DNA of 60,114 nucleotides from an uncultured Schlesneria sp. (GTDB lineage Bacteria; Planctomycetota; Planctomycetia; Planctomycetales; Planctomycetaceae): assembly GCA_903834925.1 (NCBI GenBank), contig CAILLA010000031.1, positions 1-60,114 of the forward strand. Direction: 5' to 3'. Position 1 is the stretch's first letter; the number at the start of each line of letters is the position of its first letter. Of the stretch, positions 1-12,377 are shown piece by piece. Both the position numbers and the translations under genes were made by a program. The notes beneath the pieces are model-generated. The model had not been told where the DNA came from and made no database searches. It saw only the letters and a program-made list of their open reading frames with translations.

Positions 1-472
1 GCTCAACCCAACCGGCATACGCTTTCTCGGTTCGATAGGAATAGTGCATCAAGCGACATTCTCGGCGCAGTTGCTGAATCAATGGCGGCTCATTCGGATC
101 GATCAGACCGATCAATTCGGTCATCGCCCTGTTATCGGTGGCAGCCCCTTTGCGACCATTCCGTTCGTGATCGGAAATCTCCTTCAATTTTTGAGTGATG
201 TCGTTTAACGCGGGTTCCGCCGAACACAGTACAACATCGCGGTAGCATTCAATGGCAGACGATGCCTGCAAACGTTGCCACGCGGGAACGGACGTGTCAC
301 GTAATGATCGCAGGAATTCGATGACCGTTTTACGATCAACAGCCAAACGATCGGATCGCGATTTCTGCTGAAACAATGCGTACTTCCCAACCCAGATCGG
401 AAACCACTTCTGGCCCGTCTCGCCGACATCAGCCCTGACCAGTAAACGGGAAAACTCGTAAACCGACATCAT
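1..472 (-). CDS. intI: Integron-type tyrosine recombinase (IntI-like), N-terminal part, runs off the left edge
   Basis: Reading the minus strand from the ATG at 472 gives an uninterrupted 157-residue frame to the window edge. The start is supported by a GGGAGG ribosome site at 474-480; a second ATG follows directly. The last visible residues (about 139-156, RLMHYSYRTEKAYAGWV) match the start of the SAM-like core-binding domain of integron integrases and related tyrosine recombinases. Before it lies about 130 residues of N-terminal extension containing an AWQRLQA...AIECYRD block, seen in longer planctomycete-type recombinases and absent from class 1 IntI. The catalytic R-H-R-Y domain and the IntI-specific insertion lie outside the window, so catalytic integrity cannot be judged. 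The reading as IntI rests on the N-terminal motif plus context: it diverges from an array of small genes separated by attC-like sites. It could be a generic phage-type integrase if the context were ignored. Confidence 0.8.
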   Translation of the reverse strand, partial: MMSVYEFSRLLVRADVGETGQKWFPIWVGKYALFQQKSRSDRLAVDRKTVIEFLRSLRDTSVPAWQRLQASSAIECYRDVVLCSAEPALNDITQKLKEISDHERNGRKGAATDNRAMTELIGLIDPNEPPLIQQLRRECRLMHYSYRTEKAYAGWVE

Positions 473-869
473 TCCTCCCGCCGTCAGAGACAGGTTTGCC
501 AAAGAAACCGGAATCATATCCTATTATTCATTATTACGGGATACAAGTGATATCTTCTGTTTTCCATTTGCAGCGATCTTTCGCGGGTATTGATGTTCGC
601 CGTGAGTGATCGTCGCTTGATCCGGCGTGCGTCGCATCGACGCCCCCGAACACGGGTACTGCCTTCACGACAGTGAACATGCGATCGGTGGTCAAAAATA
701 TTCGCCGTCGCCGCAAAATTCACTTGCAAAATGCTATCGCGGCAGTATTGTGATATCCGCGATGGCCGGAAAACCATCGCGCTATCGCGGATATCACCGG
801 AAATTTGGTGTTATCCGTGATCAATCGCGGATAATGATTAGTTATTTGGCAAAGGGAAACGGAAGCGAA
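473..869. other. Integrase-array intergenic region (candidate attI and array promoter)
   Basis: This 397-base stretch separates the leftward integrase from the first rightward array gene, where an integron has its integrase promoter, cassette promoter and attI site. A box GTTCGCC at 595-601 is identical to the 3' box of the first attC-like site (1374-1380), which makes it the best candidate for an attI crossover. From 733 onward the sequence carries several copies of an ATCCGCGAT-like unit in both orientations. I see no convincing sigma70 promoter pair by eye. An open frame from 627 runs through here into the first cassette gene but its N-terminal part looks non-coding. Confidence 0.5.
750..834. 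repeat. Inverted-repeat cluster upstream of the first cassette gene
   Basis: Bases 750-763 and 784-797 form perfect 14-base arms (GTGATATCCGCGAT and its complement) around a 20-base spacer. A second palindrome follows at 811-821/824-834 with one mismatch and a two-base centre. All share the core ATCCGCGAT. Four half-sites within 85 bases directly before the first array gene suggest operators for a dimeric regulator or a structured attI element; which of these is inference. Confidence 0.6.
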
Positions 870-1268
870 ATGATCGACCGAACGCGGATGATGTCGGCCA
901 TCGTTGCAGCGTTCCCGGATTTTGCTGCAACCTATGACGCAGTCGTGGCTGAGTGGAAAGACGAACCGGAAACTCCACACTACCTGGCACTTGCTGAGTA
1001 CTCGCGACATATTATTTCACTGCTCCAAACCGGAGACCGTCCGCAACTACAAACGGCATTCGAAGCGATCGAACGATTGCTCACCGAAGGGGACGAATAC
1101 GTTCGAGAAGCCGCAACGATTGCTATCCTCGAAAGTCTTCAGAACACAAAACTACATTCCACCACTGAGCCCGAACAACTCCTTCCGTTTTTGCGACCCG
1201 TGTCCTTACGTTACTGGAAGAAAGTCGAAGACTTCTGGGAGAATGGGACGATTATTGCTGACGATTGA
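870..1268 (+). CDS. DUF7674-like small protein, first integron cassette
   Basis: A 132-residue acidic, helix-rich protein. The ATG at 870 was chosen over an open frame starting at 627 because the sequence before it looks non-coding and carries the inverted repeats; the family also begins at this point, with the pattern MI...IVAAFP. The order AFPDF...WKDEP...YLALAEYSRHI...GDRPQLQTAFEAIERLL..GDEYVREAATIAILESLQN fits my recollection of DUF7674, a family of unknown function often found among immunity-like proteins. It would be cytoplasmic: no signal peptide or membrane segment. It is the integrase-proximal cassette, so normally the most recently inserted and best expressed. Its stop lies 12 bases before the first attC-like site. 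Function is unknown; an immunity role is only inference. Confidence 0.75.
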   Translation: MIDRTRMMSAIVAAFPDFAATYDAVVAEWKDEPETPHYLALAEYSRHIISLLQTGDRPQLQTAFEAIERLLTEGDEYVREAATIAILESLQNTKLHSTTEPEQLLPFLRPVSLRYWKKVEDFWENGTIIADD

Positions 1269-1280
1269 CACCGTATCAGA

Positions 1281-1380
1281 GTAACGGCCAATTAACAAAA
1301 AAATGCACCCGAGTTGCCGATCGGGCGTTTTCTGAAATCAAAGTCTCTTGGCGGCAACCGGGTGATTTTGGTCGTTCGCC
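1281..1380 (+). repeat. attC-like recombination site 1
   Basis: About 100 bases between two array genes. The inner arms are CACCCG-A-GTTGCCG (from 1306) and CGGCAAC-CGGGTG (about 1351-1363), perfectly paired except for one unpaired A. The outer boxes are AACGGCC near 1282 and its imperfect complement in GGTCGTTCGCC at 1370-1380. The 3' box GTTCGCC (1374-1380) takes the place of the GTTRRRY crossover box. A loop of about 30 bases separates the arms. Confidence 0.75.
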
Positions 1381-1405
1381 TCGCAGAAACGATTCGTGAA
1401 CCGCA

Positions 1406-1750
1406 ATGATTGAAGACGTCTGCCGATTACCGATTGATTACCATGCGATCGGCACGAAGACACTGATTCAACTTATGGAGGACGCCGGTTACTTCGACAA
1501 CCCGAGCGCAGTGACCGAGTCCGCAATCCAATCATGCCTCGCAAAACACTCGGATTTCTGTGACGCATGGATCGGATATTCCCAAGACCGACGCACCGAC
1601 AGTGGCTGGGTGATTGACGAACGAAAGGGCGTGTTTACTGTCTTCTACTACCCAAACGGATCGACGAAACTGAAATTCAATGATCGTTCGGCTGCGTGTG
1701 CGGCGTTTGCAATCCGAGAGCTTGCATCGCTTGCCAGACACCGGCACTGA
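1406..1750 (+). CDS. Hypothetical cassette protein (114 aa)
   Basis: A 114-residue soluble protein with no signal peptide or membrane helix. The N-terminal half is helical (LIQLMEDAGYFDNPSAVTESAIQSCLAKH), followed by a short beta-rich section with a GWVIDERKGVFTVFYYPNG strand-turn-strand pattern. I do not recognise the family; small alpha/beta proteins like this are typical of integron cassettes and immunity proteins. The ATG at 1406 lies 26 bases after the end of attC 1 and has no clear Shine-Dalgarno sequence. The stop lies 34 bases before attC 2. There are no neighbours in the same cassette. Confidence 0.65.
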   Translation: MIEDVCRLPIDYHAIGTKTLIQLMEDAGYFDNPSAVTESAIQSCLAKHSDFCDAWIGYSQDRRTDSGWVIDERKGVFTVFYYPNGSTKLKFNDRSAACAAFAIRELASLARHRH

Positions 1751-1783
1751 AAGACATGGAGTTCCCGCCGAAACGCAGATCGA

Positions 1784-1873
1784 GGCGAACAAAGCGGTCA
1801 ACGGGAGCCGCCGATGACGCGGCTTTTGAGATCATTGTTTTTTGGCGGCGGCCCCGTTACCGCCGTCGTTACC
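1784..1873 (+). repeat. attC-like recombination site 2
   Basis: The left arm AACGGG-A-GCCGCC (about 1800-1812) pairs exactly with GGCGGC...GCCCCGTT (about 1844-1858) apart from one unpaired A. The outer boxes are GAACAAAGCG at 1788 and CGTCGTTACC at 1864-1873. The loop is about 30 bases. It separates the 1406 and 1908 genes. Confidence 0.75.
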
Positions 1874-1907
1874 CGACAAAGACCGACACTGACTACGCCG
1901 AAAATGT

Positions 1908-2357
1908 ATGACTACAATCTTTGGCAAATTCTACTGGACTGGTGTTTTGCCCGACGATGACGACGTTGAACTCGCCCCGAAACCGGTATTCTCCGGTGAC
2001 TTTGGGGAGCAATGGCAATACATGGCGACCGATCCTGTGATCAAGAATGTCTGTAATGCATTGCGATCCCAAGCAATGGTCAGCGAAATGGACGAACCAA
2101 GCCCTGAAGACCATGGCTGGTATACGTACTTCAAACTTGGCGGCTGGACGTGCTTCGTGTACGTCCAATGGGTCCCTGATGGGTCCGCCAAGAATTGCTT
2201 CGAATTCGATGTTCAACTTTGCCATGATTGGTATCATCGGATCGTTCATCGAACTCGATACTCCGACCAAATTCGAGCATTAGGATCTGCGGTCGACAGA
2301 GCCCTTGCTACGGCTGCCGATGTCGAAGGTGTGGTGTTTAACCAACGCGCATGCTAG
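1908..2357 (+). CDS. Hypothetical cassette protein (149 aa)
   Basis: A 149-residue acidic protein without signal peptide or membrane helix. It begins with an aromatic strand (FGKFYWTGVLPDDDDVELAP), has a middle rich in Trp/Tyr (HGWYTYFKLGGWTCFVYVQWVP) and ends in helices (RYSDQIRALGSAVDRALATA). I do not recognise the family. The ATG at 1908 was taken in preference to an overlapping out-of-frame ATG at 1904; there is no Shine-Dalgarno sequence. The gene begins 35 bases after attC 2 and ends 9 bases before attC 3, filling its cassette. The aromatic-rich beta core would fit a small binding or immunity protein, but that is a guess. Confidence 0.6.
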   Translation: MTTIFGKFYWTGVLPDDDDVELAPKPVFSGDFGEQWQYMATDPVIKNVCNALRSQAMVSEMDEPSPEDHGWYTYFKLGGWTCFVYVQWVPDGSAKNCFEFDVQLCHDWYHRIVHRTRYSDQIRALGSAVDRALATAADVEGVVFNQRAC

Positions 2358-2365
2358 AAATGCGG

Positions 2366-2422
2366 GTAACGAAACATTCAACACGGACGGCGAGTACGCC
2401 GCCGGTTAATTTCACGTTCGAA
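2366..2422 (+). repeat. attC-like recombination site 3
   Basis: A compact 57-base site. The inner palindrome AAC-A-CGG-A-CGGCG / agta / CGCCGCCGGTT (about 2379-2406) is perfect apart from two unpaired A residues on the left arm. The outer boxes are AACGAAAC at 2368 and CACGTTCG at 2413-2420. Its core is almost identical to attC 8 at 6908-6980. Confidence 0.75.
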
Positions 2423-2430
2423 AAACACAA

Positions 2431-2814
2431 ATGCCTCACCACGAATGCTCCATTACAATTCCAGCAGACGATGCCTTTCGGCAAGTCGTTGTCGATTCGT
2501 TATCTCAAAAGTCGATCGCATTTAACGAGACATCACTTGTGCATCTCCAGGAATCTGAGGGTTTACCTGCGACCGTTCTTGGCTATGTCTTCTCATTTCA
2601 AACGGCCGCGATCCTTGCTGCGGTCCTTAACGGTCTTTCACCGTCATTCGTGGCATACATTCAAAAATCACGATCAATCACAATCAAGAACGGAGATATT
2701 GAAGTCACTGTGTCCGATAAGAAGTATTTGACAGACGCTATATCCCAAGTAAATGCGATATCATCGCCAAAACCAAGAACAAAAAAGAAAACACCGAAGA
2801 AATCAAAAAAGTAA
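2431..2814 (+). CDS. Hypothetical cassette protein with one hydrophobic helix and basic tail (127 aa)
   Basis: A 127-residue protein. Residues about 45-65 (ATVLGYVFSFQTAAILAAVL) form one hydrophobic helix, followed by a KSRSITIKNGDIEVTVSD beta hairpin and a short helix (KKYLTDAISQV), then a lysine-rich tail (TKKKTPKKSKK). Helix, basic linker, I-x-GD-E hairpin and terminal helix resemble the layout of the effector-associated component EACC1 found beside NTPase conflict systems; this similarity is by eye and weak. The ATG at 2431 lies only 9 bases after the end of attC 3 and lacks a Shine-Dalgarno sequence, so translation may start on a nearly leaderless message or depend on the attC hairpin. 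Confidence 0.6.
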   Translation: MPHHECSITIPADDAFRQVVVDSLSQKSIAFNETSLVHLQESEGLPATVLGYVFSFQTAAILAAVLNGLSPSFVAYIQKSRSITIKNGDIEVTVSDKKYLTDAISQVNAISSPKPRTKKKTPKKSKK

Positions 2815-2843
2815 TCACTTCCGGGGTCCATCCCGATTCGTTT

Positions 2844-2947
2844 CGAACAAGACGCTCAACTGGAGCCGCAACGCCGCTCTTTTCATCGCTCGGTTTCATC
2901 GGATTGCCTTTCTTGGGATCGCGGCCCAGTTATCTTTTTCGTTCGGC
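2844..2947 (+). repeat. attC-like recombination site 4
   Basis: The left arm AACTGG-A-GCCGC (about 2858-2869) pairs exactly with GCGGC-CCAGTT (about 2921-2931) apart from one unpaired A. The outer boxes are CGAACAAGACGCTC at 2844 and CGTTCGGC at 2940-2947. The loop is about 50 bases, the longest in this array. It shows that the long open frame spanning 2753-3418 crosses a recombination site and that the real gene starts later. Confidence 0.75.
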
Positions 2948-3004
2948 GTAAGAATCAGATGCACCGTTATTGAATGTCGTTCGCTCTCCACGACAGGAAA
3001 TCCC

Positions 3005-3418
3005 ATGCTCACCCATACATTCGACGCTCTTGCGGCCAATCCCGCATTCGCCACTGTCTGCCTCGCGCTCGCCGGAACCGTCGCCGCTCTTTTGCATCAG
3101 ATCGTAATTTCGCGATCCCCATTGCATGGCATCAATGCGACGTTGAAGGCAGAGAACTCGACGTTTCAGAAAAAAATATCGGATCTTGAGGCGAAGGTTT
3201 TGGAACTTCAAGCCACAATAGATACCAATTTCAGCCGCGAATCCATTCATCTTCGTTTTCCAATCGATCCAACCACAAATCTTCGCAAGAAAGACGGGCA
3301 TTACTTTTGCCCTAAATGCTTTCCTGAATCACTCACAGAAATAATTCCGAAAAACGGCAAATACCATTGCGATAAATGCAATAAAAAAACGACTGTCCCT
3401 GCATTCGTCGGTAAATAA
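3005..3418 (+). CDS. Membrane-anchored coiled-coil protein with C-terminal zinc ribbon, cassette gene
   Basis: A 137-residue protein starting at ATG 3005, with AGGAA at 2995-2999 as ribosome site. The frame is open from 2753, but that stretch contains attC 4, so this internal start fits better. Residues about 14-35 (NPAFATVCLALAGTVAALLHQIV) form one membrane helix, followed by a coiled coil (LKAENSTFQKKISDLEAKVLELQATI). The C-terminus has paired knuckles FCPKC and HCDKC about 25 residues apart, a zinc-ribbon pattern. The layout resembles small membrane adaptors of phage-defence or stress systems, but the family is not recognised. It lies between attC 4 and attC 5. Confidence 0.65.
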   Translation: MLTHTFDALAANPAFATVCLALAGTVAALLHQIVISRSPLHGINATLKAENSTFQKKISDLEAKVLELQATIDTNFSRESIHLRFPIDPTTNLRKKDGHYFCPKCFPESLTEIIPKNGKYHCDKCNKKTTVPAFVGK

Positions 3419-3429
3419 AACACAAAAGC

Positions 3430-3485
3430 ACCGAACAAGTCGCTCAACGGGACACGAAGACGTGCCCGTTATCATGTCGTTCGGT
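3430..3485 (+). repeat. attC-like recombination site 5
   Basis: A classical short attC of about 56 bases: outer boxes ACCGAAC (3430) and CGTTCGGT (3478-3485), inner arms AACGGG-A-CACG and CGTG-CCCGTT around a 4-base loop, with one unpaired A. The inner core is identical to attC 6 at 4222-4277, showing that both cassettes carry the same site family. Confidence 0.85.
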
Positions 3486-3546
3486 CACAGAATACAGAAT
3501 CAAACTACGCTCGTTTCGCTCGAATGTTGACATTGAAAGAACTCCT

Positions 3547-4206
3547 GTGGCAAAAAAGAAAGCCGCGAACAAAACTCCGGTGAAGACAACGGCTAAAAAG
3601 AAATCTGTCATTCGCCGACTCCCAAAAGGTCTTCAATATCTTCGCGTGATTGCAATATGTGAGAATACGAAATGCGGTCAAGTATTTACTGGGGACATTG
3701 AAAACATTCGCATTGGCGCCAATGCTAGGGTCAGTTTGTACGGCGAACGAAAATGCGTTTGCCAACATTGCGGCGGCATGGCTCGAATCCCCGAAGCACA
3801 ATACACGACCATTTCCACTTCCTTTTTTAATTCTTCAGACTTTGAGATTGTTGCAAGATCTATTCTAGGCATTCAAGATAGAAGGCTACACGGTGCTGGC
3901 GAAGACGAAATAAGAAAAGAAATCTCATCCAACCTCATCCTTAGCACTTTGGCTAAATTTGCTCCCGATGCATCATTTCCCTCATTAATGACATTCTTAG
4001 CCGTAATTTTGCAGGTGATCGAAGTTTTTCTTGCGTACCGCCAAAACGAATTGAGTATACCCCATGATGCGCGATCAGCTCTCGAAGCAGTCTCTCGCGT
4101 GCAACCCGTCGACCAACACGATATCCGTAACACACGCTTGCCACTACCAGAAACACTAGGTTTGCAATGTGGAGAATCACGATCAATTCCTCCGTTATTC
4201 GAATGA
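3547..4206 (+). CDS. Zinc-finger-containing hypothetical cassette protein (219 aa)
   Basis: A 219-residue protein beginning at a GTG. The N-terminus is strongly basic (AKKKAANKTPVKTTAKKK), a plausible nucleic-acid-binding tail. A CENTKC knuckle near residue 38 and CVCQHCGG near residue 74 make a four-cysteine zinc-finger candidate ending in a GGMARIPEAQY motif. The C-terminal half is helical with one hydrophobic stretch (SLMTFLAVILQVIEVFLAY) that may be a buried or membrane helix. No signal peptide. The family is not recognised. It occupies the cassette between attC 5 and attC 6. Like the 3005 gene it joins a zinc knuckle to a hydrophobic helix. Confidence 0.6.
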   Translation: MAKKKAANKTPVKTTAKKKSVIRRLPKGLQYLRVIAICENTKCGQVFTGDIENIRIGANARVSLYGERKCVCQHCGGMARIPEAQYTTISTSFFNSSDFEIVARSILGIQDRRLHGAGEDEIRKEISSNLILSTLAKFAPDASFPSLMTFLAVILQVIEVFLAYRQNELSIPHDARSALEAVSRVQPVDQHDIRNTRLPLPETLGLQCGESRSIPPLFE

Positions 4207-4221
4207 CGATTAAATAAATAC

Positions 4222-4277
4222 ACCGAACAAGCCGCTCAACGGGACACGAAGACGTGCCCGTTATCTCTAACGTTCGG
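4222..4277 (+). repeat. attC-like recombination site 6
   Basis: Outer boxes ACCGAAC (4222-4228) and CGTTCGGC (4270-4277); inner arms AACGGG-A-CACG / aaga / CGTG-CCCGTT with one unpaired A. It is almost identical to attC 5, which suggests that cassettes here acquired sites from a common pool. Confidence 0.85.
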
Positions 4278-4296
4278 CCAAGAAGGAGTTTTGATC

Positions 4297-4716
4297 ATGG
4301 GCTCAAGTCCTTACTGGTACTACGAGCGGTACACCGGTGATGTTGACGAGTCGCTTCAGACGTTGCGGCACCGCGAATTCACCGCAGGACGATATAATCC
4401 AGTAATGCCGTTTCCTGACTTTCCACCCCGACCTGACTCCCCGTCGCCCGGCGCACAGCACGCGTCGATCGAAGAAGCCATGGAAGACGCGGCGGAAGAT
4501 GGAACTCGGTCGATCTTGGATCTTATGACGGTTGGGGAGTCCCCTGACTTCTGCGTAGCTGCTCGTTTGTCTGATGACGAATTGTTGAGCCTTTATGAAA
4601 CGACGCGGCCGACGCGTGAAATGATTGACTCGAACTTGCCGTTCTCAGACGCGATGGAGCGTGGGCAGGGAATTTACATCGTCGTGGCGGGCAAAAAAAG
4701 GGGACAGGTCCTTTAG
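4297..4716 (+). CDS. Conserved cassette protein, C-terminus truncated by a REP element
   Basis: The ATG at 4297 has an AAGGAG ribosome site at 4283-4288 and is preferred to the TTG at 4291. The protein (139 aa) has the pattern SSPYWYYERY...LRHREFTAGRYNPV.PFP.FPP.PDSP.PGAQHASIEEA...DGTRSILD...L..LYETT.PTREM, which I recall from small proteins of unknown function in planctomycetes and actinobacteria. Those proteins appear to continue after the GQGIYIVV strand. Here the frame runs instead into the REP palindrome at 4693 and ends in KKRGQVL. So the last 10-20 residues are probably lost and replaced by REP-encoded residues. The role is unknown; whether the product is still functional is doubtful. 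Confidence 0.65.
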   Translation: MGSSPYWYYERYTGDVDESLQTLRHREFTAGRYNPVMPFPDFPPRPDSPSPGAQHASIEEAMEDAAEDGTRSILDLMTVGESPDFCVAARLSDDELLSLYETTRPTREMIDSNLPFSDAMERGQGIYIVVAGKKRGQVL

Positions 4717-4755
4717 TGACTAAATGAATTGAAAACAACTGGACCTGTCCCCTTT
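4693..4755. repeat. REP/BIME-type palindrome (GGGGACAGGTCC family)
   Basis: A run ending AAAGGGGACAGGTCC (4697-4711) is repeated in inverted orientation at 4741-4755, with a 29-base centre that includes TTGAAAACAACT. The same unit occurs at 59203-59231 and 59752-59779, next to the RAYT transposase remnant at the window's right end. RAYT proteins mobilise such REP units, so this is most simply a REP insertion into the integron. It joins a 3'-truncated gene on its left to a 5'-truncated gene on its right. Confidence 0.85.
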
Positions 4756-5560
4756 GTTTTCGTTCGTGGAGGTTGAGATTCTTGACCCATTTAACCATCA
4801 GGATTACGAGACAGACAAGTTGTCGATCGTCGACGTGAAAGCGATCGACTCGACGGGAGCGATTTACCATATCGAGGTGCAGTTGAACTTTGTCGACGGG
4901 CTGATCCAACGCGTCGTGTTTTATGGCTGCGAACTGTTCGCCTCGCAATTGAATGCGGGCGGCGAGTATACGGAACTCAAACCGGTCTGTTCCATTTGGC
5001 TGTTGGATGCGATCTTGTTCAAGGACGCGACGAATCTGCATCATCACTTTCGGCTGAGCGATACAGCAACCGGCCGTGTGCTTGAAGAGCTTTTAGAAAT
5101 TCACATCCTGGAGCTTCCGCGATATACTGTAACCGTCGAGCATTTGCCGAGGGCGAGCAAACGCGATTGGTGGTTGTTCTGGCTCTTGCGGGCACAGGAT
5201 TACGAACCAGAAGAGTTATTGCGGCTGTTTCCGGAGGCGGAATTTCAACAGGCGACCCGATCATTGATCGAGATCGCCGAGAAGACGAGGGACAAAATGG
5301 CCTACGACAAGCGAGAACTAGCGATGAAAGACCAACTCGCCGCCATCACCCATGCGCTGGAAAAAGGGCGACAAGAGGGCGAATTGAAAGGGCGACACGA
5401 AGGTGAACAAAGAGGCGAAATGTTGGGCCGAATTGTCACACTTCAAGAATTGCTCTCGGTCGCAACACCAACGCGGGAAGAATTGTCAAGCTACGATTTG
5501 ACGCAACTCACAATTGCGTGCGAGCGTCTTCAGAAGCAACTTCGTGATCGCGGCGTCTAA
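4754..5560 (+). CDS. Rpn/PDDEXK-family nuclease, N-terminally truncated
   Basis: The protein reads EVEILDPFN...DKLSIVDVKAIDSTGAIYHIEVQ, the core of Rpn-type (PDDEXK_2) recombination-promoting nucleases. The visible catalytic residues are D27 and E41-x-Q43, counting from the TTG at 4754. The tail has the usual GRQEGELKGRHEGEQRGE repeats and a closing helix. Family members begin about 40-50 residues earlier (a PTVDYAFKRLFG-like block); that part is missing, and the frame begins exactly at the end of the REP element. So this is a 5'-truncated copy, possibly read from the TTG with no proper ribosome site. The full proteins cut DNA and are linked to horizontally transferred DNA. Activity here is uncertain. 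Confidence 0.75.
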   Translation: MFSFVEVEILDPFNHQDYETDKLSIVDVKAIDSTGAIYHIEVQLNFVDGLIQRVVFYGCELFASQLNAGGEYTELKPVCSIWLLDAILFKDATNLHHHFRLSDTATGRVLEELLEIHILELPRYTVTVEHLPRASKRDWWLFWLLRAQDYEPEELLRLFPEAEFQQATRSLIEIAEKTRDKMAYDKRELAMKDQLAAITHALEKGRQEGELKGRHEGEQRGEMLGRIVTLQELLSVATPTREELSSYDLTQLTIACERLQKQLRDRGV

Positions 5561-5640
5561 TCGCCTGCCATCAATGGTATACTGGGCCTCGCGGTGCCAG
5601 TGGTAGGTGATGCCGCTTGAACTCATTGAAACACCTGACG

Positions 5641-5853
5641 ATGATGAATGATCCGCTGATTGACGAAATTCGCCGTGCGAGACGCGAGATTTCGGACGAC
5701 CTCGGACCTAGTTTGTTTGGCATTGTCAAGCACTACGCAGAAATCGAAACCCGTTTTGTGAAGCCTGCATTGACGGCCAAAGATCACAAAACCAAAAGAA
5801 CCAAGAATATCACCGAACCAGCCGGTCCAGCGGAATGGAGTACCATCCGCTGA
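5641..5853 (+). CDS. Small conserved protein of the DPLIxEIRxxR type
   Basis: About 70 residues from the ATG at 5641 (an in-frame upstream ATG at 5617 is possible). The opening NDPLIDEIRRARREISDDLG...IVKHYAEIE matches very small, widespread proteins of unknown function that often sit beside toxin genes; the match is from memory of the motif. The last 14 codons overlap attC 7, so the natural C-terminus may have been rewritten by cassette formation. No ribosome site is obvious. It may be an antitoxin-like partner of a lost gene; that is inference. Confidence 0.55.
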   Translation: MMNDPLIDEIRRARREISDDLGPSLFGIVKHYAEIETRFVKPALTAKDHKTKRTKNITEPAGPAEWSTIR

Positions 5854-5868
5854 CCTTGAACGTTCGGT
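5812..5868 (+). repeat. attC-like recombination site 7
   Basis: Outer boxes ACCGAAC (5812-5818) and CGTTCGGT (5861-5868); inner arms AGCGG-A-ATGG / agta / CCAT-CCGCT perfectly paired with one unpaired A. The central bases differ fully from attC 5/6 while the architecture is the same, which argues for selection on structure rather than recent duplication. Confidence 0.85.
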
Positions 5869-5886
5869 GAGTGGAGGGGGCATCTG

Positions 5887-6867
5887 GTGGTGGTTGAACG
5901 GAAGGACCTGTTTGTCGGCGGCATTGAAGCCGGTGGCACGAAATTCGTGTGCGCTGTAGGTCGCGCGCCAGAGGATGTCTGCCGACCGGAGAACAGAACT
6001 GAGTTTCCAACAGGTGATAACCCTGGCCAACTCATCTCCCGGGTCATTGACTGGTTTGCGGAGAAACAGAGCCGCGAACCGTTGTCGGCCATCGGAATCG
6101 CCTCGTTCGGCCCGGTCGATCTCGAAAAAGGCTCCCCTCGTTACGGGCATATCACTTCGACACCCAAACCCGGTTGGGCGAATACAGACCTTGTTGGGCC
6201 GATTCAACGAGGGTTGGGCAACATACCCGTCGGTTTCGACACGGACGTGAACGGCGCCGGCCTTGGCGAATACTTCTGGGGCAATGCGTCAGGGCTGGAG
6301 GACTTCGTCTACATCACGATTGGAACCGGGATCGGTGCTGGCGGAATGGCGCGCGGGCAACTCCTCCACGGTCTTGTCCACCCAGAGATGGGGCACTTGC
6401 GACTTCCACGGGTCGCTGGCGACGAGTTCCCCGGGGTGTGTCCGTACCACAAGGATTGCTGGGAAGGCCTTTGCTCAGGACCTGCGATACTTAAGCGAGC
6501 CGGGACGCCCGCCGAAAAGATTCCACCGGATCATCCAGCGTGGAAATACGAAACGCAGTACATCGGGTATGCCATTGCCAACATCGTCTGCACGCTGTCT
6601 CCGCGGCGGGTCATTATCGGCGGAAGCGTCAGGAAGGCTGGGCAACTCGGCGAGGAAGCCTTCTTCCATGCCGTACGGGAGCATGTCCAGACAACCCTCA
6701 ACAACTACGTCGTGTCGCCGTCGTTGCTCGGCGACGGCGTCCACAGGTACATTGTCCCTCCTTTATTGGGTGATAATGCCGGAGTGTGCGGGGCACTCGC
6801 GCTGGGTCAGCTTGAATGTTCCATCGCCGAGGAATGCAGGGAAAAAGTCCAATTAATTAACTACTAA
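5887..6867 (+). CDS. ROK-family sugar kinase (fructokinase-like), cassette-borne
   Basis: A 326-residue ROK kinase that would phosphorylate a hexose, most likely fructose (EC 2.7.1.4), with ATP in the cytoplasm. Visible are the N-terminal phosphate loop (GGIEAGGTKF, residues 11-20), the catalytic Asp block (FDTDVNGAGLGEY, near 117), the second glycine motif (TIGTGIGAGG), the HPEMGH block and the Cys/His zinc site (CPYHKDCWEG, near 180). The length is normal and no key residue is missing. The GTG at 5887 follows a GGAGGGGG ribosome site at 5873-5880. It lies between attC 7 and attC 8, so a full metabolic gene is carried as a cassette. No other sugar genes are adjacent. GlcNAc or mannose as substrate cannot be excluded. 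Confidence 0.88.
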   Translation: MVVERKDLFVGGIEAGGTKFVCAVGRAPEDVCRPENRTEFPTGDNPGQLISRVIDWFAEKQSREPLSAIGIASFGPVDLEKGSPRYGHITSTPKPGWANTDLVGPIQRGLGNIPVGFDTDVNGAGLGEYFWGNASGLEDFVYITIGTGIGAGGMARGQLLHGLVHPEMGHLRLPRVAGDEFPGVCPYHKDCWEGLCSGPAILKRAGTPAEKIPPDHPAWKYETQYIGYAIANIVCTLSPRRVIIGGSVRKAGQLGEEAFFHAVREHVQTTLNNYVVSPSLLGDGVHRYIVPPLLGDNAGVCGALALGQLECSIAEECREKVQLINY

Positions 6868-6907
6868 AAAATGCGATGAACGGACATTCTCGTTTCCAAA
6901 CCTTGCT

Positions 6908-6980
6908 TTAACGCAATAAAATGGTCGAAAACATTCAACACGGACGGCGAACACGCCGCCGGGAAATTTTGACGTTAACC
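6908..6980 (+). repeat. attC-like recombination site 8
   Basis: Outer boxes TTAACGCAATAAAA (6908) and TTTTGACGTTAACC (6967-6980), which are complementary over most of their length; inner arms CGG-A-CGGCG / aaca / CGCCGCCG with an unpaired A. The core matches attC 3 (2366-2422) almost base for base, although the outer boxes differ. Confidence 0.75.
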
Positions 6981-7000
6981 AGAAAGATCGACACATTGAG

Positions 7001-7699
7001 ATGTCCGACGCGACACAGCCAATCTCAAAGTGCTACCGGCCCGGCCGCAACTGGCTCGTGATCGGAATTGTTGGTGCCATATTTTTTCCAACAATTGGCA
7101 TCAGCTCCGTTTATGCCGCCTACTGGAACATCGACGGATCATTCCCTCACCCAAAGACTCACGCTTTCGTCCATGCCGTATTTTGGTCCCTCTGGACTCT
7201 CAGTGCGTTTTGGATAATCGCCGCGTACTTCCGGACGCGGCTTACGATCACACCTCTAGGCTGCTCGCAGCAGGGTTGCTTCATTCGTACACAGATTTCT
7301 GTCGCAGATGTGTCGCAGGTAACATGGAAGGGTATTCCTCAATCAGGAAAGCTGATACTCCGTGGCGCGCAAGGCCAGATGAAAATCGACTTAAACAATC
7401 TTGTTCACAAAGATCGAACTGAATTCATTCAACTTGTCCACAAACTTTTCGACGACAGAATCCAAACGGGATGGTCAGAGTTCAATCGCCAGTCATTCGT
7501 GGCAGCGCCAAGTCCAACGGACGAACGTCGTGCCACTAAAAGTTGTGCATTGATCCTTTTCATTTTCGGCGTCGTTTGTTTACTTTGTGGGTGGTTTAAC
7601 CTTGGTGCACAGTTTTACGTATCGGGGTTTGGCGGTGTTTTTGCCACCGTCTGCTATATTTGGCGGATTCAGCGACGCAAACATTCAAAGGCTGGTTAA
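7001..7699 (+). CDS. Membrane protein with PH-like central domain, cassette gene
   Basis: A 232-residue protein. Two membrane helices at about residues 18-40 and 58-80 are followed by a beta-rich soluble section (about 85-150: TRLTITPLGCSQQGCFIRTQISVADVSQVTWKG) typical of bacterial PH-like domains, and two more helices at about 180-197 and 203-222. The pattern YRPGRNW..IG.VGAIFF...G..S.YAAYWN.DGSFPHP is one I recall from planctomycete hypothetical proteins. The ATG at 7001 is 20 bases after attC 8, with only a weak GAG before it. The stop overlaps the start of the degenerate site 9. It probably sits in the inner membrane; its role is unknown. Confidence 0.7.
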   Translation: MSDATQPISKCYRPGRNWLVIGIVGAIFFPTIGISSVYAAYWNIDGSFPHPKTHAFVHAVFWSLWTLSAFWIIAAYFRTRLTITPLGCSQQGCFIRTQISVADVSQVTWKGIPQSGKLILRGAQGQMKIDLNNLVHKDRTEFIQLVHKLFDDRIQTGWSEFNRQSFVAAPSPTDERRATKSCALILFIFGVVCLLCGWFNLGAQFYVSGFGGVFATVCYIWRIQRRKHSKAG

Positions 7700-7745
7700 C
7701 AAGAAAATGCACGCCGAGCAGCGGTGGGGCATCGTTTGGTACTGA
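7690..7745 (+). repeat. Degenerate attC-like site 9
   Basis: GGTTAACAAGAAAATGCAC at 7693 resembles the left half of attC 1, and CGTTTGGT at 7733-7740 resembles the 3' box of the other sites. The inner arms pair only partly (CCG/CGG with mismatches). It could be a decayed last attC or an alternative type. Confidence 0.4.
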
Positions 7746-8073: not shown

Positions 8074-8241
8074 GTGACGGATGAGAACGAGATTGATCAT
8101 TCCTCCGTGGCTCTGTCAGAAACCTAAGTGGCCGATTCAATTCGGTGAAAGTCAGTTCAGGATGCCCGGGTTACCCTGACCGTTTGGCGGTGGAGATTGG
8201 CAGAAAGCCACCGCGAAAACTGCGGATTCAATCGGCGATTT

Positions 8242-11792: not shown

Positions 11793-12377
11793 ATGATTGT
11801 CGAAGGAATCGTGACGACGCTCAATCGTGACGACGAATTGAATATTGCTCCGATGGGTCCGATTGTCGACGAATCCATGACGACCTTTATGTTTCGTCCG
11901 TTTCAGTCCTCGACAACGTACCGAAATCTGAAAGAACGACCCTACGGCGTTTTTCACGTCGTCGATGACGTCCTGTTGATTGCTCAGACCGCTTTGGACC
12001 GGCTGGAAACAGTCCCTGCAACGTTTAAGGCGGAACGGATCGTCGGACGCGTGCTGAGTGACTGTTGTCGCTGGTACGAATTTGAAGTGGCCAGTTATGA
12101 CGATTCTTCGGCTCGGACGACTTTCAATACAGCGGTTGTGCATACCGGGCGGCTTCGCGACATGTTTGGCTTTAACCGAGCCAAACATGCCGTTCTCGAA
12201 GCAACAATCCTGGCGACTCGGCTGCATCTCGTGCCGGAAATCGACGTGCGAAAGCAGTTAGAATCGCTTTCAAGCCCGGTCGAAAAGACCGCTGGCCCTC
12301 AAGAGAAGGCCGCGTTCCTTTTGGTGACGAATTTTGTTGACGACTGGTATCGGCGTGCGAAAACACAGAAAGATTAA
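11793..12377 (+). CDS. DUF447-family flavin-binding-like protein
   Basis: A 194-residue protein from ATG 11793; the open frame begins at 11718 but the family opens with MIVEGIVTTLNRDDELNIAPMGP, exactly as here. DUF447 proteins have a split-barrel fold related to FMN-binding flavoproteins. They occur in archaea and in planctomycetes, often near genes for methanopterin-dependent one-carbon metabolism. No such genes are adjacent here. The protein should be cytosolic. Its 3' end overlaps the stop of the convergent DinB gene by 4 bases. The specific role is unknown. Confidence 0.8.
   Translation: MIVEGIVTTLNRDDELNIAPMGPIVDESMTTFMFRPFQSSTTYRNLKERPYGVFHVVDDVLLIAQTALDRLETVPATFKAERIVGRVLSDCCRWYEFEVASYDDSSARTTFNTAVVHTGRLRDMFGFNRAKHAVLEATILATRLHLVPEIDVRKQLESLSSPVEKTAGPQEKAAFLLVTNFVDDWYRRAKTQKD

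Follow-up and report, generated by a model that had tools for sequence, protein, structure and literature searches.

Integrons are taught as one integrase gene (intI), one attI site and one array of gene cassettes. The window analysed here, a stretch of 60,114 nucleotides that makes up one entire contig (C31) of a planctomycete genome, begins with a leftward integrase gene followed by a rightward array of small gene units. The attI block between them recurs elsewhere in the genome, and in related genomes, with no intI beside it. The question raised by this locus is whether it is an integron of the textbook kind or belongs to a system in which an integrase also works at attI sites other than its own.

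Integrase gene and chromosomal setting

The integrase gene lies on the reverse strand (2..472) and runs off the contig start, leaving only its N-terminal part in the window. The remainder is on contig C151, whose reverse complement is 100% identical to window positions 1-141, an exact 141-base overlap through which the integrase continues. Contig C100 shares the same overlap with C151, and the C-terminal half of either gene may lie on C151 or on C296. The part on C151 scored 431.7 bits against model TIGR02249, which is over the cut-off of 265, and 320.8 bits against a second model, NF011946, which is under the cut-off of 435. The nearest solved structure is 2a3v. A close relative of the integrase (L111, 94% identical) aligns to 2a3v with 299 bits right through the IntI-specific segment; at that segment, between residues 297 and 376, its alignment to XerC-like 4a8e is interrupted. 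The joined window integrase carries the same segment as L111. The sequence-only reading had made its claim depend on this insertion, which is thus present. The joined protein also contains GLRLMEC, HSLRHSF and GHADVSTTMIYTH, which we take to be the catalytic Arg, His-x-x-Arg and Tyr motifs. Judged by these features, the window integrase is a true integron integrase.

IntI proper begins near window position 80. About the first 130 residues form an extra N-terminal domain that looks like a second core-binding domain; a profile of this domain gave only two weak and unrelated matches among PDB sequences. Translation probably starts at 469 or 472 and not at 517, because a TAG interrupts the homologous frame of C100 upstream of that point, with no other following it. 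We had considered that the N-terminal part of the C100 integrase was broken and rejected this, as the TAG sits upstream of the likely start. Fragments of intI and one broken intI copy are also present in the window's own genome.

The gene carB lies on the same contig (8242-11589) and the locus is therefore chromosomal. Searches of the window gave no Rfam match at gathering scores, and a tRNA search found none.

attC sites and cassettes of the window

In integrons, IntI acts on the bottom strand of attC, which it cuts in folded form, and joins cassettes at the G^TT of attI. In the window, the attI block (708..843, forward strand) contains two palindromes (arms 750-766/781-797; 812-833) and ends in ATTA|GTT, which would place the crossover at G841^TT. 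Nine attC sites follow on the forward strand, with coordinates given here from R'' to R'. Five short sites that fold, S3 (2363-2423), S5 (3429-3486), S6 (4221-4279), S7 (5811-5869) and S8 (6921-6982), were combined with three short sites of C100 into a covariance model of eight members. On the window, the model recovered its own five members together with the long sites S2 (1784-1875; E 2e-5) and S4 (2841-2948; E 1.7e-8), both of which had been left out; the next-best match had an E value of 0.28. The same scan missed S1 (1288-1380), which is long and imperfect, and S9 (7692-7742), which has no stable fold.

Folding of the bottom strand as DNA gave z values of -2.5 to -5.1 for S3 and S5-S8, -2.2 for S2 and -1.7 for S1; S4 (-0.5) and S9 (+0.2) are weak by folding alone. 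An unpaired (extrahelical) base is visible in the folded short sites, so the second condition set by the sequence-only reading, folded sites free of unpaired bases, does not refute it either. Its description of the sites, stems perfect except for unpaired A bases, holds for the short sites but not for S1, S2 and S4, which are long and imperfect. Within the model set, 83.9% of cells were paired versus 69.9% in shuffles and 18 cells were double-changed versus 8.3, values as high being reached in 0/500 shuffles in each case. Neither the pairs with a double change (7 versus 5.2; 76/500) nor the further pair types (9 versus 8.2; 211/500) were above the shuffles.

The R'' at a cassette's end can also be compared with the R' at its own start. 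Over eight cassettes, whose ends were set by the covariance model or by the comparison of C31 with C100, 33/48 bases matched versus a permutation mean of 20.1 (exact p = 0.002); R'' and R' within the same site matched at 19/42 bases. A wider set, with some ends picked by eye, gave 58/78 versus 28.3. The cassettes would once have been circular, because the R'' of the end matches the R' of the same cassette's start. The R'' of the cassette with the ROK-family gene (cassette 8) does not match its own start. A mechanical version of the test on 13 cassettes of relatives, which left out model hits below 20 bits and sites without AAC or GTT, gave a weaker signal than the window (40/78 versus 29.3, p = 0.004). 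On the related array L112 the test was uninformative since its sites are nearly uniform. We also considered that S9 might be no site at all and rejected this: its R'' agrees over 9 bases with the beginning of the cassette that it ends. S9 looks like a true cassette end on this match, which supports the degenerate site that had been proposed at 7690. Together, TIGR02249, the attC model and the R''/R' match confirm the integron with a leftward integrase and a rightward array that the sequence-only reading had recognized.

All cassettes read on the forward strand. Cassette 1 (842..1374; ORF 870-1268) encodes a DUF7674 protein. No confident family was found for the ORFs of cassettes 2 (1375..1868; ORF 1406-1750), 6 (3480..4272; ORF 3547-4206) and 9 (6975..7734; ORF 7001-7699), and no family for those of cassettes 3 (1869..2416; ORF 1908-2357) and 4 (2417..2941; ORF 2431-2814). 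Cassette 5 (2942..3479; ORF 3005-3418) has weak family matches only, several of them zinc-ribbon-like. Cassette 7 (4273..5862) looks composite, with an ORF of no family (4297-4716), an Rpn/PDDEXK_2 protein (4754-5560) and an ORF with a weak match only (5617-5853). Cassette 8 (5863..6974; ORF 5887-6867) encodes a sugar-kinase-like ROK-family protein (PF00480, 2e-53). The array had been thought to end at 7745, but it extends beyond: a decayed tenth cassette reaches 8184. It lies at 8081..8184 (forward strand; 71% identity, E 1.6e-8), is a copy of a cassette that occurs repeatedly, and ends in an attC-like sequence. We rejected the view that this repeated cassette of about 160 bases is of an unknown kind, as a longer relative with the same inverted repeat carries a PDDEXK_3 gene at its centre. 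From this comparison, the short cassettes look like internal deletions of the PDDEXK_3-carrying form. PADLOC found no match among 10 cassette proteins, and a search for a cassette promoter Pc gave one sigma-70-like site where 0.8 were expected.

attI copies without an integrase gene

Another platform of this kind lies on contig C100; it resembles the window up to the G^TT of attI and diverges after it. The two are identical at 133/136 positions in the attI block versus 156/188 in 520-707, and past the block the homology is gone. Further copies of this block of about 136 bases, with no intI beside them, are present in this genome and in three relatives of the same genus. The genome searches scored a limited number of candidates (12 per genome in the relatives, 150 of 1062 in another search), and all counts of attI copies are therefore lower bounds. 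We found at least seven loci with the block in this genome, not counting a 31-base match, and at least five, five and three in G392, G393 and G396, not counting a 32-base match. The copy on G393:C111, which the search of the relatives had missed, comes in addition. Among 20 loci examined by tblastn, only the window, C100 and G392:C182 had a match to the integrase. In an alignment of 14 attI copies, from which six decayed or shifted copies were left out, 13 end in ATTAGTT and continue with unrelated sequences.

Sites of attC on the same strand (E <= 0.01) lie beside 12 of the 17 orphan attI loci, as we call those without intI, and all 29 matches are on the attI strand. Two or more attC sites without intI, the criterion for a CALIN (a cluster of attC sites lacking an integrase), occur for example at L221, L218, L227 and L222; in several other orphan arrays a single attC was found. 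The 136-base block keeps 81-85% identity to the window at five orphan sites, where the adjoining 188 bases are 34-54% identical. Divergence is greater in other orphan copies (54-75%) and smaller in G396:C133 (88% and 78%). GTT is absent from its expected place in five of the 17 orphan copies.

In the 12 orphan copies with GTT in place (the five without it being left out), the summed match between the first cassette's R'' and the attI was 84 versus 67.1 in permutations (p = 0.0018). When the two intI platforms were added, p was 0.016; cassette 1 of the window itself is not picked up by exact matching. Chance alone often gives matches of 7 or more bases (8/14 cognate versus 47/174 non-cognate pairs), and less often those of 8 or more (4/14 versus 12/174). 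At G393:C20 and G392:C232 the first-cassette R'' matches the bases from GTT on at 10 of 10 positions.

One orphan attI, locus X, can be compared across species. The order is attI-B-D in G393, attI-B-C-D in G392 and attI-A-B-C-D in G396, and the changes lie at the G^TT; four other genomes (G000, G394, G397 and G398) have no island at this place. The left junction of the island is identical in G392 and G393, and the state without intI is thus probably older than the cassette changes. G392 carries an intI with an open frame elsewhere in its genome. Cassette A has an attC match at E 7e-5, a decayed internal attC and an end that does not match its start; B reaches only E 0.017, the attC of C was not found by the covariance model, and the B/C junction of G392 is damaged. 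All the evidence for action in trans comes from this one locus and one pair with a decayed attI, and from genomes that are mostly drafts.

The integron, the attI boundary, the orphan blocks, their neighbouring attC sites and the presence or absence of cassettes at the G^TT of one of them can all be read off the compared genomes. We consider it likely that this is an integron with several attI sites that is worked in trans by IntI, the orphan attI being platforms that lost intI. The window itself holds a chromosomal integron, with the N-terminal half of its integrase gene, its attI and nine or more cassettes. The orphan attI would most likely be former platforms after intI loss, and cassettes may have gone on being inserted or removed there, in the relatives at any rate, by an IntI encoded elsewhere in the genome. 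The trans action of IntI is an inference, and so would be any role assigned to its extra domain. A broader form, a genus-wide distributed integron in which one or two IntI with a doubled core-binding domain serve dispersed attI in trans, each with a small changing array, is put forward tentatively, its probability falling a little short of even.

Under an alternative that we regard as unlikely, the integron is an ordinary chromosomal one, the dispersed attI are dead relics, and the changes at locus X predate separate intI losses in each species. In its favour, of the five orphan attI in the window's own genome a single one (C149) is accompanied by an attC at E <= 0.01, and its attI lacks the GTT end; none was found at this threshold beside both C115 copies, C266 and C172, and at C115 (both copies) and C266 the first-cassette matches of 5 to 7 bases are no better than chance. 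The orphan sites of this genome thus look mostly like relics. Several attI copies are decayed, the intI fragments and the broken copy fit as well, and G393 and G396, the genomes whose arrays differ, gave no intI match over the cut-off. Against this stand the left junction shared by G392 and G393, which points to one intI loss before the cassette changes, and the five orphan sites at which the block is so much better conserved than its adjoining bases.

A further reading, in which the block is not attI but a scattered repeat of a regulatory or REP-like kind, with two palindromes, that fronts cassettes by chance, would suit its strong inverted repeats and its many occurrences; it is very improbable given the common ATTAGTT end of 13 of the 14 aligned copies, with unrelated sequence after it, and the 10/10 matches from GTT at G393:C20 and G392:C232. 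The assembly does break in the 141-base repeat where C31, C100 and C151 meet, yet it is scarcely credible that the orphan sites are artefacts of repeated platforms in draft genomes, since orphan attI lie inside long contigs (G393:C111, 96 kb; G393:C20, 122 kb) and one is common to two genomes with flanks 86% identical over 2 kb.

Relation to known integrons and meaning

Planctomycete integrons as such are not new. Of 392 sampled Planctomycetota genomes, this one included, 71 have a TIGR02249 match above the cut-off. As far as experiments go, the earlier remark that few have been studied may be justified, but the integrons themselves are common. A planctomycete attC model has already been published (PMC8352920). 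Like a sedentary chromosomal integron, the present one has a divergent intI, a G^TT attI, an attC array on one strand and cassettes mostly of unknown function. Unlike it, one genome holds two platforms and attI blocks without intI, and its attC sites are mixed in type, whereas 6/7 of the sites found in the related array L112 are nearly uniform. The label 'sedentary' thus holds as far as the chromosomal location shown by carB goes, but does not cover the second platform and the scattered attI.

The orphan arrays resemble CALINs in having no intI, and differ in being headed by a conserved attI block and in that cassette turnover at one of them is readable across species. Proposed origins of CALINs include insertion by an IntI encoded elsewhere and loss of intI (PMC8618304). 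Deltaproteobacterial IntI of clade 15 (Nemergut et al. 2008) are described as longer by about 120 residues, the result of a fusion that they have in common (PMC2426708). The extension of the planctomycete IntI, which may or may not be the same domain, lies at the N-terminus and resembles the IntI core-binding domain. In Delta-attI-type cassettes of mobile integrons, an attI away from the intI-proximal position is reported to be usable by the integrase (PMC12901181). Those attI pieces belong to arrays in mobile integrons; the blocks described here are scattered, with no intI beside them, over genomes of one genus.

If several attI were served in trans, one integrase could feed cassettes to many chromosomal places, and this would account for some of the attC arrays that have no integrase. 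The species series at locus X makes trans action testable, with the palindromic attI block as a concrete substrate, and the extra IntI domain could be used to explore how these enzymes might be made to choose other targets.

Integrase and attC sites of the integron

The Schlesneria draft genome (G000) comprises 9.02 Mb in 307 contigs, and the window is contig C31, complete. Because window base 1 is the contig end, the integrase gene, which reads leftwards, is truncated. Window 1–141 is overlapped 100% by the reverse complement of contig C151, and the joined frame encodes an uninterrupted protein of 446 residues that starts at window 472; its C151 part scores 431.7 bits with TIGR02249 (cut-off 265). 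L111, a locus on the same contig as L229 from an uncultured Schlesneria sp., is 94% identical to the joined integrase across 446 residues. The sequence-only reading had proposed an alignment with IntI as a check. Residues 134–445 of L111 align to the solved integron integrase 2a3v (299 bits), through the segment at which its alignment with a XerC-like chain breaks. The predicted L111 structure (mean pLDDT 87.0) also has 2a3v as its top PDB match (TM-score 0.82–0.83 by target length).

The end of C151 carries a 68-base tandem repeat (L025 4211–4428), which may be the cause of the assembly break there. Other integrase remnants in G000 are a broken copy on C276 (L027 7127–7773) with an attC-like site ~3.8 kb off, a C-terminal part, 93.6% identical, at the end of C296 (L026 4430–4765), and one fragment each on C160 (L028) and C293 (L029).

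Nine attC sites (S1–S9) were placed in the window. We built a covariance model from eight short attC, of which five lie in the window and three on C100, a second integron platform of 6 kb. Paired cells made up 83.9% of this set against 69.9% in shuffles; by two of five measures covariation among the eight sites was no higher than in shuffles. When the window and six other loci were scanned, the model returned its own members and recovered the held-out long sites S4 (E 1.7e-8) and S2 (E 2e-5); the next-best match within the 60 kb window had E 0.28, and S1 and S9 were missed in that window. For S4 and S9, folding by itself was weak (z -0.5 and 0.2). The 31 loci retrieved by the N-part of the integrase gave 14 matches at E ≤ 0.1, spread over eight loci, all 14 of them upstream of intI and on the opposite strand. 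Across G000, the best 150 of 1062 candidates included at least 33 matches at E ≤ 1 and at least 22 at E ≤ 1e-3, on at least 12 contigs.

Circular cassettes predict that the box R'' at a cassette's end pairs with the R' at its own start, which in an array sits at the end of the preceding attC. For 13 cassettes on C31 and C100, some of whose ends were picked by eye, 58 of 78 bases matched (permutation mean 28.3), and same-site pairing in the wider set was 26/72. In a stricter set of eight cassettes, with ends taken solely from the model or from comparing C31 with C100, the match was 33/48 against 20.1 (exact p = 0.002), and same-site pairing was 19/42. The ROK cassette (5863–6974) failed the test, and S7 fitted its own site better than its cassette's start. 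With the family score, the held-out sites and the circle test, the integron called by the sequence-only reading was borne out, with all the certainty that sequence evidence can give.

A ~160-base cassette that contains a long inverted repeat and ends in an attC recurs in G000 as 16 matching pieces and about ten copies (window 8081–8184, L102, L106, L108, L109, L101, L110, L028, L174 and L176), several with another attC-like site immediately before them. A longer relative in G396, a same-genus genome, holds a PDDEXK_3 gene within the same inverted repeat, and the short copies seem to derive by internal deletion from a cassette bearing this gene. Cassette 7 looks composite: at window ~4695–4756 an inverted repeat, AAAGGGGACAGGTCC ... 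GGACCTGTCCCCTTT, separates two genes right ahead of an Rpn-family gene.

The N-terminal extension

About 130 residues precede IntI proper. A profile of this domain scored at least 57 bits in 29 of 60 scan loci and 14–17 bits in four others (frames of at least 100 residues). Of the 29, 27 come from planctomycetes, Kuenenia included, and two from sources given only as 'bacterium'; other phyla may be missed because the scan pattern was derived from planctomycete sequences. A single-sequence search found the domain in 5 of 392 Planctomycetota genomes, 71 of which have an IntI above cut-off. Against these proteins' own core-binding domain, the profile gave a probability of 70% (E 3.9e-5 for one comparison). 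In the PDB, the predicted structure (mean pLDDT 87.1) is matched best by 2a3v, with a probability of 1.00, a TM-score of 0.61 by query and an rmsd of 2.1 over 80 columns but an E of 0.19; Cre, XerA and lambda integrase follow. Taken with the profile comparison, this structural match makes a second core-binding domain the most likely identity of the extension, whose role we can only infer.

Integron hosts include Planctomycetes, according to PMC2426708, PMC9668308 and PMC8618304. The first of these reports IntI lengthened by fusion in deltaproteobacteria; the planctomycete extension here is N-terminal.

Dispersed attI blocks

C100 1–845 is 89.5% identical to window 1–843, and homology stops at the crossover. 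Identity is 133/136 in the attI block (window 708–843) and 156/188 in 520–707. The block contains two palindromes; the pattern of the second occurs, with at most two mismatches, at four places in G000 (C31, C100, C115 and C49).

The attI is dispersed in G000 and in same-genus relatives. Window 520–845 had eight matches in G000 which, leaving out one of 31 bases, lie on C31, C100, C115 (two), C149, C266 and C172. At least 4 of the 59 genomes searched as relatives, its own included, had a match (G000, G392, G393 and G396, all of the same genus); counts in relatives are lower bounds, the best 12 candidates per genome having been scored. A further copy lies on G393:C111. By tblastn, only the window, C100 and G392:C182 carried an integrase among 20 loci with attI matches. 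Beside 12 of the 17 orphan attI of these loci there was attC at E ≤ 0.01, always on the attI strand (29/29; 25 downstream, 4 upstream). Within G000 this held for only one of five orphan attI, C149, whose attI copy is partial. On C115 (L190), two attI blocks, 5845–5979 (+) and 11795–11928 (-), are opposed with ~6 kb between them. At G393:C30 (L221 156–1592) and G392:C266 (L218 259–317) same-strand attC also lies upstream, so that attI there is inside an array.

ATTAGTT terminates 13 of 14 aligned attI copies. R'' of the first cassette and that cassette's start at attI shared 10 bases at G393:C20 and G392:C232, 8 at G393:C30 and 7 each at G392:C186 and G392:C266, in all five cases at an attC-like site. 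Summed over the 12 orphan sites with GTT in place, the match was 84 against 67.1 with permuted partners (p = 0.0018); adding both intI platforms gave p = 0.016. The G000 sites in this test (two on C115, one on C266) matched over just 5 to 7 bases. Among the literature matches listed on extra attI sites and on action on attI in trans, judged on titles and the openings of abstracts, we recognised no account of chromosomal attI blocks lacking intI.

Cassettes at an orphan attI across species

Sequence adjoining one orphan attI, locus X, was matched in 15 of 15 same-genus genomes searched. In the seven genomes whose loci were compared, no island was found in G000:C11, G394, G397 or G398. The cassettes at locus X differ between species: the order is attI-B-D in G393:C111, attI-B-C-D in G392:C30 and attI-A-B-C-D in G396:C53. 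The differences fall at the crossover, G^TT. The attI is joined directly to B in G393 and G392, with A between them in G396; cassette C has G^TT at both bounds in G396 and is absent from G393, and the B/C junction is damaged in G392. The model gave E 7e-5 for the attC of cassette A and a weak E 0.017 for that of B; the attC of C had no model match. Another pair of orthologous sites, G000:C172 and G393:C43, is 85% identical over 1994 upstream bases and diverges past attI, but the attI there is decayed.

Of 14 same-genus relatives, three (G392, G402 and G403) have an IntI above the family cut-off; none was found in G393 or in G396, which retains a 54-residue fragment. The island's left junction is contiguous and identical in G392 and G393, and G396 carries 186 extra bases there. 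Since this junction is common to G392 and G393, the simplest reading of the sequences is that intI was already gone by the time cassettes A and C were gained or lost. IntI would then work on orphan attI in trans.
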